Origin: Bacteroidota bacterium
GTDB taxonomy: Bacteria > Bacteroidota > Ignavibacteria > Palsa-1295
Assembly: GCA_021324685.1 (NCBI GenBank)
Contig: JAJPIQ010000064.1
Location: forward strand, 1-53,088
Direction: 5' to 3'
Length of the DNA: 53,088 nt
Every line of letters begins with the position of its first letter. Position 1 is the first letter of the stretch. Of the stretch, positions 21,221-26,567 are shown piece after piece. The notes beneath the pieces are model-generated. The model was not told the origin of the DNA and made no database searches. It was given only the letters and a program-made list of their open reading frames with translations. The position numbers and the translations under genes were made by a program.

Positions 21221-21246
21221 AAAAAAGCCGGTCGTTTCCGACCGGC
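21221..21246 (-). terminator. Intrinsic terminator of the propeller lipoprotein gene
   Basis: Arms GCCGGTCG and CGACCGGC (21227-21246) are preceded on the plus strand by six As, giving a T-run on the minus strand. It lies about 50 nt beyond the stop of the minus-strand gene at 21296. Confidence 0.8.
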
Positions 21247-21295
21247 CTTTGACACACACCTCATTCTTTGTTCCTTTATTTTTATCCCTAATTCG

Positions 21296-22405
21296 TTATT
21301 TTGGCATCATAAAAACGTTGGTAGTATTGAAGATCGCGCCGCTCGGAGTTCCACCGGAACGTTGGTCTCGAGCCGGGATCGTGACCGGTGCCATCGCCGT
21401 ATTTCCGTTCCCGTCGTAATTCACGCCCAGGCCCGGGCCGTTCGAAGAGACCCATAGCGTTCCCGAACTCGTGATCGCGATTCCCCATCCGTTCACGAGA
21501 TTGGGATCGATCCGCGCCGCCCCGAAGCCGGCCGTATCCGCAACCAGTTTCGTTACCATATAGCCGGAGCCCGAAGGCTTGATGTAGCCGAACATTCCAT
21601 GCCCTTCGTCCTGCGGTCCCGCCGCCCAATAGAGCGTATTCGGGTCGAGCGCGGTCGTGATCGCAGGATCGGGGAACTTGACGCTCCAGAGGCCGTCGAT
21701 CGTCACGGTCGTGCCATTCGGGTCTTTGAGCTGCCCGAGGAAGGTCCCGTCCAGCCCGAACACGCTGACCGTCCCATCGCCAAAATTGTTGACCAGAATA
21801 TCGTTCGAAAACTCTCCGAAGCCGCCACCGGACATCGTGACCCCCCAGGGGGAATTCAGCGAGCCGTTCGATGCGAACCGTTTTACGAACGACCCGTCCG
21901 GGTTGAAGACGTCGATGTAACCATTCCCCACCCCTGCCGAATCGTCGTGGTTCCCAACTTTATGCTTCGCATAGGTCACGTAGAGGAGTCCGTTAATATT
22001 CGCGATTCCGAACGGGCCGAAATCGGCGGGAATGGCCGGTGACCCTCGATCGACGAAGCTCGCTCCCTGGAACGGCGCGCCCTGCTGATGATGAAATCCC
22101 GTGTCGTAAATATCGATCTGCGATTCGGAAAAATCGGTGACGTATAAATAGGAGGTCCCACCGAGCGGTGCGATGGCAAGGCTTTTATAGACCGCCTTAT
22201 CCGAAGCGCTCCGCGCGACCTGCGTGGCTGTGGCGCCGGAAGCCCACGCCGAAACGATTCCGTCCTCGCTCGAATAAAGCACCTGAGCCTTCGTTCCAGA
22301 AGCCGGATCGGAGTTCGTAGGGGTGGTATTGCTGTGACACGAGACAAGAATGAGGGCCAGCCCATACACCACAGAGCGAGGGACACGATACGATGCTTTT
22401 TTCAT
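21296..22405 (-). CDS. TIGR03118-like beta-propeller lipoprotein, blades in permuted order
   Basis: The 369-aa product has a signal peptide with lipobox LVSC (Cys23) and a good ribosome-binding site (AAGGAG). From residue 42 it follows the TIGR03118 family: VLYSSEDGIVSAW, AVYKSLAIAP, LYVTYAKHKVGNHDDSAGVGNGYIDVF as separate conserved stretches, SLNSPWGV, NDILVNNFGDG and IDGLW. The stretch that opens other members of the family (VTKLVADTAG, DPNLVNGWGIA, LWVSSNGPG, GTPSGAIFN) is found here at the end, residues 283-360. The protein therefore contains the whole propeller once, but begins one or two blades later than usual. Family function is unknown. The terminator at 21221 closes the gene. Confidence 0.8.
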   Translation of the reverse strand: MKKASYRVPRSVVYGLALILVSCHSNTTPTNSDPASGTKAQVLYSSEDGIVSAWASGATATQVARSASDKAVYKSLAIAPLGGTSYLYVTDFSESQIDIYDTGFHHQQGAPFQGASFVDRGSPAIPADFGPFGIANINGLLYVTYAKHKVGNHDDSAGVGNGYIDVFNPDGSFVKRFASNGSLNSPWGVTMSGGGFGEFSNDILVNNFGDGTVSVFGLDGTFLGQLKDPNGTTVTIDGLWSVKFPDPAITTALDPNTLYWAAGPQDEGHGMFGYIKPSGSGYMVTKLVADTAGFGAARIDPNLVNGWGIAITSSGTLWVSSNGPGLGVNYDGNGNTAMAPVTIPARDQRSGGTPSGAIFNTTNVFMMPK

Positions 22406-22560: not shown

Positions 22561-23235
22561 CTATCTCTTTTTGATCATATGATTCCTGAACCACTCGGCG
22601 CTCTGATGGGCCACGGCTTCGAGCGTTCCGGGCTCTTCGAAAAGATGGGTTGCACCGGGAACGATCATCAGCTTTTTTTCGCAGCGCATGGCGATCATCG
22701 CTTCCTCGTTGAGCGCGAGGACATCGGTATCGAGCTCGCCGATCAGGAGCAGCGTCGGCGCAGACACTTGCTTGAGGTACGGCCCAACGAGGTCCGGACG
22801 TCCGCCGCGACAGACGACGGCCGCAACTTCGGTTCCCAGCTCGCTCGCGGCTACGAGCGCCGCCGCCGCACCCGTGCTGGCCCCAAAAAATCCGATCGGA
22901 AGGTCATGCGTCGGCTGCTGGTCCGACTGCCAATGGGTCGCGATACGAAGGCGTTTGGCAAGCAACGGAATATCGAAGCGATTATCGAAGACGCGGTCCT
23001 CATCCATCGTCAGCAGGTCGAAGAGCAGCGTGACAAATCCGGCGCGATTCAGTTCGTGGGCCACAAATTGGTTCCGAGGGCTCAATCGGCTCGAACCGGA
23101 ACCATGGGCAAAGAGAATAAGCCCGCGAAACGGAGTTCCGTTGCGCGGCGGTGTATCTAAAATCCCTTCGAGCCGTGTCCCTTCGACGGGAATCGTGAGG
23201 CTTTGACGCGTCGATTTCGTTACGTGTTCGATCAT
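22561..23235 (-). CDS. Alpha/beta hydrolase, dienelactone-hydrolase-like
   Basis: The 224-aa product shows the alpha/beta hydrolase fold: LILFAHGSGSSR (oxyanion region), nucleophile elbow GFFGASTG with Ser, an Asp in LLLIGELDTDV, and His in VPGATHLFEEPG. No signal peptide, so cytoplasmic. The family is related to DLH and to proteins often fused to phosphoribosyltransferases. The frame remains open upstream to 23544, but that region is a tandem repeat and not protein-like; ATG at 23233-23235 starts the conserved N-terminus (IEHVTKSTRQSLTIPVEG). The substrate is unknown. Confidence 0.85.
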   Translation of the reverse strand: MIEHVTKSTRQSLTIPVEGTRLEGILDTPPRNGTPFRGLILFAHGSGSSRLSPRNQFVAHELNRAGFVTLLFDLLTMDEDRVFDNRFDIPLLAKRLRIATHWQSDQQPTHDLPIGFFGASTGAAAALVAASELGTEVAAVVCRGGRPDLVGPYLKQVSAPTLLLIGELDTDVLALNEEAMIAMRCEKKLMIVPGATHLFEEPGTLEAVAHQSAEWFRNHMIKKR

Positions 23236-23605
23236 GGGTTCCGATGAGCTAAAAACCAGAGATAAAAATTCGCTCGAACCTTCGGTGAATAAGAAAGACC
23301 ATGGGGAGAAACAGACCGAAATACTGCACTCAGGATAGTCCGAAATACTGCACTCAGGATAGTCCGAAATACTGCAGCACTCAGGATAGTCCGAAATGAT
23401 GCGGCACGGAGCGATGAGCTTGATAATGAAAGGACGAGCGGCGTTCCATGGCTGGGCAACGCCATGGGTCGAGGCAAAACAATTCGACCGGCATGGCACC
23501 GGTCTTTGAATAAGAGGTCCAAAGCTATCAAATCTGGCACTCATTCAAGAAGGGTGCCATAAAGAAAGCTCCAAATATTAATTCCAGCAGCCGTGAGGCG
23601 GTTAA
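23236..23605. other. Intergenic stretch with tandem repeat, no gene seen
   Basis: The 370 nt between the hydrolase and the helical-protein gene hold the 24-bp tandem repeat at 23316-23400 and a few short inverted repeats (GGCGTT/AACGCC around 23430-23455; GGCAC/GTGCC around 23536-23560). No convincing coding frame, tRNA or terminator with a T-run is visible. Confidence 0.6.
23316..23400. repeat. 24-bp tandem repeat, three full copies and a partial fourth
   Basis: Units begin CCGAAATACTGC and end CAGGATAGT. Copies 1 (23316-23339) and 2 (23340-23363) are identical, copy 3 (23364-23390) carries a 3-nt GCA insertion, and the fourth breaks off after about 10 nt. No spacers, so it is not a CRISPR array. 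Lies 80 nt upstream of the hydrolase start. Confidence 0.9.
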
Positions 23606-24149: not shown

Positions 24150-26567
24150 ATGCACCTCGTTCGCCGAATATTTGTGCTCTGGCTCGCCGTGCTGCTCGTT
24201 GGGGCGCCGGGCTGCATGTGGTGGCATAATTTCTCTACCTATTTCAACACGGTCTATCTGGCGAAGACGCATATCGATGCGTACGAAGCGCAGCAACGGG
24301 CCGTCGTCGCGCAGAACCCGAACGGGGCCGTCGCGGTACTCAATCACCGGTGGCTCGATGAAGAATACCTCATGCGCCAGCGCGGCCTCGCTATGGGAAC
24401 GGCGACGCCGATCACTCCGTCGTTTTCGCAGTCCCTCAGTGCCACGAAGGAGATCAAGAACGTCCACCTGGATTCGGCGATCATTTTAGGTTCCAAGGTC
24501 CTGGCCGATAAAAAAGGGACCAAATATTATGAAGATGCGCTGTTCCTCGTGGGGAAAGCGGAGTTTTACAAGAACGATTTTGCGGATGCGGAACGAAAGT
24601 TTTTAGAACTGCTCGCCCATTATCCGGAGACCAAATACGGCGCGGACGTTCAGGTCTTTTTAGCGAGGTCCCTGCTCATTAACCGGCATTTCGATACCGC
24701 GGCCATTGCGCTTCAGCGTGGACTTTCCTTTACGGCGAACGACAATGTGGCCGCGTCGAGCGTCCACCGCGCGCTGGCGGAACTGATTTATGCGCGCAAC
24801 CCCGATTCCCTTTCGGGCATTGCCGAGCAACTGCGAGAAGCCGAGCATGGGCTCGGCGGCGAAGATGTAGCGCGGCTGGCCTACGAAGAAGGGGCCGTCG
24901 ACTACTTAAATGGCGATTGGACAAAAGCGGAACATGCGTTCGAAGTGACCTATAGCTCCGCAAACGATCCGTGGCTTAGCGGCGAAGCCCACGTCGCGCA
25001 TGCGCTCGCGCTCCGTGAAGAAGGGAACCTGGACGCCGCCGAATCGGAACTCCGCGCAGTCGTCAACCGCGTTTCCTATGGCGGTTCGCAGGCGGCGGCA
25101 CGCTATGAACTGGCCTTTACGCACGAATCGATCGCGCGCAAAGCGGTGCAGGACGACCTGCGCTCGCCCGAATTTCGCGAGCGTTATCATCCGGCCCTGT
25201 TCCGCGAATATTTCACGCTCGATACGATGTATAAGAATACGAGCCAGGTGATTATTTCGCGGGCCACGTTCCGTCAGGCCGAAATGTACCGTGAAATGGG
25301 ACTCTACGATTCTGCCGCGCGGATCGCCGCCGGCCTGGTCGGTACCCACGAGTTTTCGTCGCTCGCGATGAACGAATACGTCTCGGAGCGCGCGGCCAGC
25401 CTTGCCAGCTTTGCTCGGTACCGGCAGGAACTTTCGCATATCGATTCGCTCGAGACCGAGCTTAAAAAAGCTCCCACGCCACAGTCGCATATCCATGTGA
25501 CCGGAGAGGTCCCGGATGCCGAGATCCACCTGAAAGCGATGCAGGAAGCCCTGGGACGTCGCTGGAACCCGGGTGCTCCGGTCACGATGTCAAAGGAAGA
25601 TTCGGTCCGCGTGCAGGAGATCGAGCAGCGCCTGAAACGGAGTCAGCCCGGAAACCTTACGATTAAAGACACCTCGCATTTTATCGACAGCTTGCACTTC
25701 GTCGGAGCGACTGCGCATTATGAGTTGGGCCGTGCCTACGAGACCTTTGGAGAAATTCCCGAAGCACGGACCGAATACCGCTTGGCAGCGACCATGGACA
25801 TGGGAGCGATGGATACCGCCCGGACCGCGCTCAAAGCGCAAACGATCTATGCCTGGGTCGAGCTCGAGCACCAGCAAAAAAATCAGCCTGTCTTCGATTC
25901 CCTGCTCCAGGAACTGCTGGCCCATTACGGCCAAACGATTTATGCCGAAGAGGCCCGGGAGCAGTTCGTTCGTTCGACCGAAAATTCTCCCGGAGAACTG
26001 GCCTACCGCGCCGCCTTTAAATCGCTCGGGATCGGCGGTCTTGACGCCGCAAAACCTTCCCTGCTGGACGTGGTAAAGACCTATCCGCAGGAGGACGTAG
26101 CGCCGCGCTCGCTCTATGCAATCGGCGAACAGTATGAAGAGGTGGAGCGATACGATAGTGCCGTGCACTATTACCGGCGCGTGCTAAATGAATATCCGTA
26201 TTCGACCTATGCCATCGCCCTGCGCCCGCGCCTGGCGGATGTGAGCGTATCCTCTCCGCCATCGCGCGGTCAAACCGTCGGCAATCCCGCGCTCCGGAAC
26301 CAGCAACAACCCGGCGAATCGCCCTCGCAGCAACCGTGGCAGCCGCGCCAAAATCCGGTCGTTCCTTCGGGAGAAGTTCCGTCGCCCGGCGAGCAGTCGC
26401 CCAGCGAGCCGCCCGCCAACCAACAGTTCCCGCCGCAGCCGCCGGGCATGCCGCCACAAGTTCCCCCGGGCATTGTGCGACCGCCGATGCCTCCGGGCTA
26501 TAAACCGCCCCCCATTCCACCGAATTTTCAACCCCCACCCCCTTCCGATACTTCACGTCACGGATGA
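24150..26567 (+). CDS. TPR lipoprotein, PorW/SprE-like (probable T9SS component)
   Basis: The 805-aa product has a signal peptide ending at Cys22 (APGC, a weak lipobox), then WWHNFSTYFNTVYLAKTHID, which resembles the conserved start of PorW/SprE lipoproteins. Helical tetratricopeptide repeats fill residues about 100-700 (for example EDALFLVGKAEFYKNDFADAE and YAIGEQYEEVERYDSAVHYY). The last 100 residues are Pro/Gln-rich low complexity. SprE/PorW links the T9SS to its attachment complex in the periplasm. Window evidence for T9SS is the sorting domain on the subtilase at 33138. Its stop overlaps pyrK by 4 nt. A generic TPR lipoprotein is the alternative. Confidence 0.65.
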   Translation: MHLVRRIFVLWLAVLLVGAPGCMWWHNFSTYFNTVYLAKTHIDAYEAQQRAVVAQNPNGAVAVLNHRWLDEEYLMRQRGLAMGTATPITPSFSQSLSATKEIKNVHLDSAIILGSKVLADKKGTKYYEDALFLVGKAEFYKNDFADAERKFLELLAHYPETKYGADVQVFLARSLLINRHFDTAAIALQRGLSFTANDNVAASSVHRALAELIYARNPDSLSGIAEQLREAEHGLGGEDVARLAYEEGAVDYLNGDWTKAEHAFEVTYSSANDPWLSGEAHVAHALALREEGNLDAAESELRAVVNRVSYGGSQAAARYELAFTHESIARKAVQDDLRSPEFRERYHPALFREYFTLDTMYKNTSQVIISRATFRQAEMYREMGLYDSAARIAAGLVGTHEFSSLAMNEYVSERAASLASFARYRQELSHIDSLETELKKAPTPQSHIHVTGEVPDAEIHLKAMQEALGRRWNPGAPVTMSKEDSVRVQEIEQRLKRSQPGNLTIKDTSHFIDSLHFVGATAHYELGRAYETFGEIPEARTEYRLAATMDMGAMDTARTALKAQTIYAWVELEHQQKNQPVFDSLLQELLAHYGQTIYAEEAREQFVRSTENSPGELAYRAAFKSLGIGGLDAAKPSLLDVVKTYPQEDVAPRSLYAIGEQYEEVERYDSAVHYYRRVLNEYPYSTYAIALRPRLADVSVSSPPSRGQTVGNPALRNQQQPGESPSQQPWQPRQNPVVPSGEVPSPGEQSPSEPPANQQFPPQPPGMPPQVPPGIVRPPMPPGYKPPPIPPNFQPPPPSDTSRHG

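Follow-up and report, generated by a model that had tools for sequence, protein, structure and literature searches.

Circular permutations account for most of the non-sequential alignments among six- and seven-bladed beta-propellers (PMC2213659), and duplication, fusion and truncation form the standard route by which permuted proteins arise (PMC4735018; PMC3320104). Engineered 3+1 permutants of the Pizza and WRAP-T propellers roughly equal the usual form in stability and withstand chemical denaturation well, and 2+2 closures are weak (PMC8458387). The permutation of propellers is therefore already known, and what we describe here is a clean example between close relatives, found in a family, TIGR03118, that has been listed among the genes acquired by hot-spring viruses (PMC11003980). 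The stretch of DNA that was analysed, hereafter the window, is 53,088 nucleotides long and contains the following features.

21296..22405, minus strand: circularly permuted TIGR03118 lipoprotein gene, 369 aa, ATG to TAA; an open reading frame with two swapped TIGR03118 matches
22292..22405, minus strand: signal peptide, lipobox LVSC (Cys23) and Ser/Thr/Pro linker, residues 1-38; read from the sequence, with a matching layout in canonical relatives of the genus
21572..22291, minus strand: segment B, now first; profile 99-334, strands b-d of blade 2, blades 3-5 and strands a-c of blade 6; 220 bits, 57-60% identity to the syntenic canonical orthologue
21299..21571, minus strand: segment A, now last; profile 1-97, strand d of blade 6, blade 1 and strand a of blade 2; 51.5 bits, 56% identity to the same orthologue
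21554..21592, minus strand: new B/A junction FGYIKPSGSGYMV; predicted covalent-hairpin turn replacing the former open seam, with strands taken from model m60b341884cca
21223..21250, minus strand: terminator-like hairpin, 12 bp stem and T-run, about 46 nt past the new stop codon

Two repeats elsewhere in the window were also observed. The contig end (52971-53088) consists of 4.2 copies of a 28-bp tandem unit, which is possibly why the assembly stopped there, and a 24-27 bp tandem repeat at 23316-23407 reads ISDYPECS in the N-terminal part of an alpha/beta-hydrolase ORF (22561-23544, minus strand), where it probably lies upstream of the true start codon.

Profile matches, signal and junctions

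The NCBIfam profile TIGR03118 matches the 369-aa protein with 259.3 bits in total, split over two stretches, against a curated cut-off of 79.95 bits that segment B exceeds alone (218.7-220 bits). When the protein was divided into residues 1-278 and the last 91 residues and each part was searched separately, residues 38-275 corresponded to profile positions 99-334 (220 bits) and residues ~282-366 to positions 1-91 (51.5 bits, E 7e-14); the E-value of this weaker part rules out that the swapped order arose by chance. A profile search of the whole genome again gave these two matches, in swapped order (profile 1-97 behind 99-334), and no third match on the contig, each segment being present once, and the other TIGR03118 gene of the genome is a distant collinear paralogue on another contig (C72:7065-7994). 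No collinear match runs over the length of the profile; the whole profile is covered, but permuted. Compared with canonical proteins, the N-terminal part is homologous to their C-terminal part and vice versa with the full domain kept, as expected of a circular permutation. Judged by these matches, the protein is a rearranged descendant of the TIGR03118 family and not a collinear member of it.

The first-pass annotation had proposed the swapped order, with each conserved segment occurring once in a complete domain, and had named a two-hit alignment to the profile HMM as the check. That check gave two ordered matches, the C-part of the model first and the N-part second, and bore out both proposals; the moved C-terminal part, which had been placed at residue 299, starts nearer residue 280. 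The PEP-CTERM sorting tail, from which the TIGR03118 model takes its name, is absent from the protein, which ends NTTNVFMMPK, and is also missing from the canonical relatives in the genus. Against the NHL repeat (PF01436) the protein scores 10.3 bits, below the Pfam gathering cut-off of 20, and by sequence it resembles NHL blades but is not filed under that family.

Read by eye, residues 1-23 (MKK...LALILVSC) form a lipoprotein signal with a lipobox and Cys, and in canonical relatives of the genus the Cys is likewise preceded by such a signal and followed by a Ser/Thr/Pro linker. The linker that follows Cys23, CHSNTTPTNSDPASGT, resembles its counterpart CKSDSTSSTDPPNSSY in G005, a species of the same genus. 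Because signal, Cys23 and linker all resemble those of G005, we conclude from the sequences that the signal stayed in place and that signal and linker are retained from the canonical architecture. The earlier idea that a lipoprotein signal had been added at a new N-terminus is wrong, since the canonical orthologues of the genus already carry one.

Segment B starts KAQVLYSSEDG (canonical AKVLFSTEDG) and ends FGYIKP, after which segment A begins SGSGYMVTKLV (canonical SSYQETVLV) and ends with NTTNVFMMPK and the stop codon (canonical NTTNDFNGAKVLF). Because the start of B and the end of A align with the canonical sequence there, the two ends can be seen to meet almost exactly at one place, and this cut site is the very length-variable loop of the family between strands a and b of blade 2. 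A repeat search found no repeats marking breakpoints at the junctions, no duplicated remnant of a second gene copy is left, and the DNA of the two linkers is only weakly similar, over about 20 bp (shuffle p 0.018, uncorrected, for the best of two pairs tried).

The canonical orthologue and the origin of the permuted order

The nearest relative of the permuted gene is a canonical gene in G005 (G005:C6:56149-57093), ~58% identical and with one collinear TIGR03118 match (1-334). The two loci have in common the genes for a TPR protein (window 24150-26567) and a 125-aa protein, as well as the DHOD-region genes; these keep their orientation relative to one another, with several extra genes between. 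Segments A and B each have this orthologue as their best match (56% and 57-60% identity), and when A and B are each given a tree of their own, the permuted gene falls in or beside the G005/G001 group with moderate support. The TPR lipoprotein at 24150-26567 resembles PorW/SprE of type IX secretion with a score below the cut-off, and nothing was found that links it functionally to the propeller protein.

We propose, and consider likely, that a six-bladed lipoprotein propeller was permuted in place by the duplication route, with its ring still closing and its anchor face kept. The segment order, the completeness of the domain, the orthology, the canonical order of the other members and the conservation of the loops are direct results; the DNA route, the closure, the face and the function are inferred. 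From an ancestral order of signal and linker, A, B, a tandem or partial duplication would have added, in frame after B, a second A that brought along part of its upstream linker; deletion would have removed the original A, and the second B would have been lost behind the new stop, which would leave the present order of signal and linker, B, A. The same permutation could have been reached by another DNA route, in which A moved directly to the 3' end by cut-and-paste, or A and B were temporarily separate genes (fission and fusion), without a tandem copy. Both are given as alternatives in PMC3320104, and the missing tandem remnant and the almost exactly complementary ends would fit either of them. 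We regard them as rather unlikely, though as the most serious competitors to the duplication route, because in the relatives neither A nor B was recognised as a gene by itself (there are a few partial matches, which may be contig ends) and tandem TIGR03118 copies do occur, with adjacent copies present in G009 and G771.

The frame has been under protein-level constraint, because divergence is concentrated in third codon positions in both A and B (0.63-0.67 vs 0.21-0.31) and their GC3 is normal and fits that of the neighbouring genes; most of this constraint may predate the permutation. Some loss of constraint is possible, because the branch of the permuted gene is longer than that of its orthologue (0.49 vs 0.20 in the tree) and, among the positions invariant across 13 canonical proteins, three of 37 are changed, one of them from Gly to Ser. 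These last features would also suit a decaying gene, whose fold was broken by the permutation and which is now a recent pseudogene or has a non-functional product, but the 369-codon frame is intact with its signal peptide, 34 of the 37 invariant positions are kept, and the codon pattern is that of a normal gene. We hold decay to be improbable, and the permuted gene is, from these sequence features, probably genuine and functional.

Less probable still, though it is the main risk to this reading, is that the true gene is canonical and that the contig was mis-joined within it. The assembly is a draft of 89 contigs and the single genome of its species, and it contains the sole permuted case found, but an artefact of this kind needs three internal junctions that are all in frame and sensible: one from signal and linker to the start of strand b, one at a linker of hairpin size, and one where stop codon and terminator come right after strand a. 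The junctions contain no repeat that might have led an assembler astray.

All other full-length TIGR03118 genes examined, about 76 by a hand count from the result tables, are collinear, and the permuted order occurs in one genome. The collinear full-length members comprise 19 in the gene's own class (same genus and family included), 29 in another order of the phylum (that of G125), 23 in the phylum of a Chloroflexi genome (Chloroflexota), two on proteobacterial plasmids and three on IMG/VR viral contigs; a scripted check of the loci gathered by then counted 39 distinct full-length genes in collinear order and a single permuted one. Because the syntenic orthologue and all of these genes are collinear, the permutation is derived, and most simply arose in this genome's own lineage once it had separated from that of G005. 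An initial protein scan of genome contigs yielded no permuted relatives, and phage records yielded no relatives. A pattern for the junction, in which the C-end is joined to the N-start, is specific within the window but has a low recall (4/19 known members carry both motifs); a scan of 84,980 genomes with it for close permuted cases beyond this gene gave one hit only, a transporter-like protein by sequence, which was rejected as chance. The permuted clade that the first-pass annotation had held out as a possibility was not found (0 of about 76 other full-length members), and we give the least credence of all to an old alternative form of the family with a permuted clade including this gene: its distant members could escape a pattern of such low recall, but the full-length members are collinear in every group surveyed and the sole outside match is unrelated.

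Two further observations came from the survey. At G009:C45:13045-15643 (L049-L051) one of two adjacent TIGR03118 genes contains its C-terminal part of ~80 aa (profile ~254-334) in an additional copy and so encodes a propeller with a duplicated blade region, and among the TIGR03118 genes on IMG/VR contigs classed as viral (L067-L070), two are preceded by long Gly/Thr/Ser-rich repeats.

Predicted ring closure and face toward the membrane

By strand assignment from NHL-like motifs, the canonical chain runs from strand d of blade 6 through blades 1 to 5 to strands a-b-c of blade 6, a 1+3 closure, and the permuted chain runs from strands b-c-d of blade 2 through blades 3 to 6, all whole, and blade 1 to strand a of blade 2, a 3+1 closure. 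The fold should be a six-bladed NHL-like beta-propeller, in which the Velcro closure is predicted to change from 1+3 to 3+1. The ring would stay six-bladed: the old seam, where the N-terminal strand d lay on the C-terminal strand c, would become a covalent hairpin, and a new seam would form where the C-terminal strand a packs against the N-terminal strands b-d.

A model of the permuted form only (m60b341884cca) is of moderate quality, with a pLDDT of 68.6 and a pTM of 0.78, and was built on a thin alignment of four viral-contig loci; a fold run without an alignment reached a pLDDT of 36.5 and was discarded. In the model, strands b-c-d come first and a c-d hairpin lies at the B/A junction, where the two strands are model residues 248-255 and 258-264 (protein 271-278 and 281-287). 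The C-terminal strand a that would close the ring falls in a region of low confidence (pLDDT below 50, model residues 311-346). Foldseek and other structure matches of the model are six-bladed propellers of NHL and YWTD type. The alignment with v31Pizza6 (6i39) runs end to end (Z 23.3, rmsd 2.9, 249/251 residues), and unpermuted propellers score equally high.

A propeller of four-stranded blades carries its a-b and c-d loops on one face and its b-c and d-a loops on the opposite one. Since the canonical chain opens ahead of strand d and stops behind strand c, and the permuted chain opens ahead of strand b and stops behind strand a, all four termini, old and new, should lie on the face with the a-b and c-d loops. 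Because these ends share one face, as the start and end strands and propeller geometry suggest, the lipid anchor probably moves to another blade and the face toward the membrane is probably unchanged. The first-pass annotation had anticipated the different blade; its suggestion that the permutation may reveal which face is exposed holds only in part, both cuts being on the same face, which is predicted to be unchanged. Termini and lipid anchor would thus stay on the face of the a-b and c-d loops, with the other face directed away from the membrane. Among 39 collinear members, with strand limits set by hand, conservation is higher in the b-c and d-a loops (2.43 bits) than in the a-b and c-d loops (1.99 bits; p 0.003 by permutation), examples of the conserved loops being the NFGDG, TEDG and DDxAGxGxG stretches. 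This conserved face is the one that probably points away from the membrane and binds a putative partner.

Significance and comparison with known systems

Permutations of propellers have mostly been inferred between distant structures, and here a permuted gene and its orthologue are ~58% identical and have neighbours in common. Because of that identity and those common neighbours, the two genes form a real pair on which one can measure what a displaced seam costs or gains, a natural experiment on rings opened elsewhere. More tentatively, we suggest that the pair may represent a change of closure from 1+3 to 3+1 that occurred naturally between two congeneric species, fixed for a change in stability or for a tether moved to another blade, with the membrane face kept. 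For an uncharacterised family, the placement of all termini on the face that lies across from the best-conserved loops would indicate where to seek a putative binding site. Profile-based annotation can misread permuted genes as truncated or fused.

The canonical TIGR03118 (PEPCTERM_chp_1) members, such as the G005 orthologue, have motifs and residues, lipoprotein signal and neighbours in common with the permuted gene, but keep the A-B order and close 1+3, whereas the permuted protein has the order B-A and a predicted 3+1 closure. Saposin/swaposin and other duplication-permuted proteins (PMC3320104) represent the same kind of evolutionary event in other folds, which are not lipid-anchored propellers. 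The TRIM-NHL propellers (Thin, TRIM2, TRIM71) are the best PDB matches by sequence and Foldseek, but these eukaryotic RNA- or protein-binding domains are 14-20% identical in structural alignments, and their function is not transferable. The engineered permutant of the NHL-type Pizza protein, v31Pizza6-AYW (PDB 6i39), has six blades and a 3+1 inner Velcro, as predicted here; it was engineered with identical blades, whereas the present case is natural, in an irregular propeller, and lies between species of one genus.
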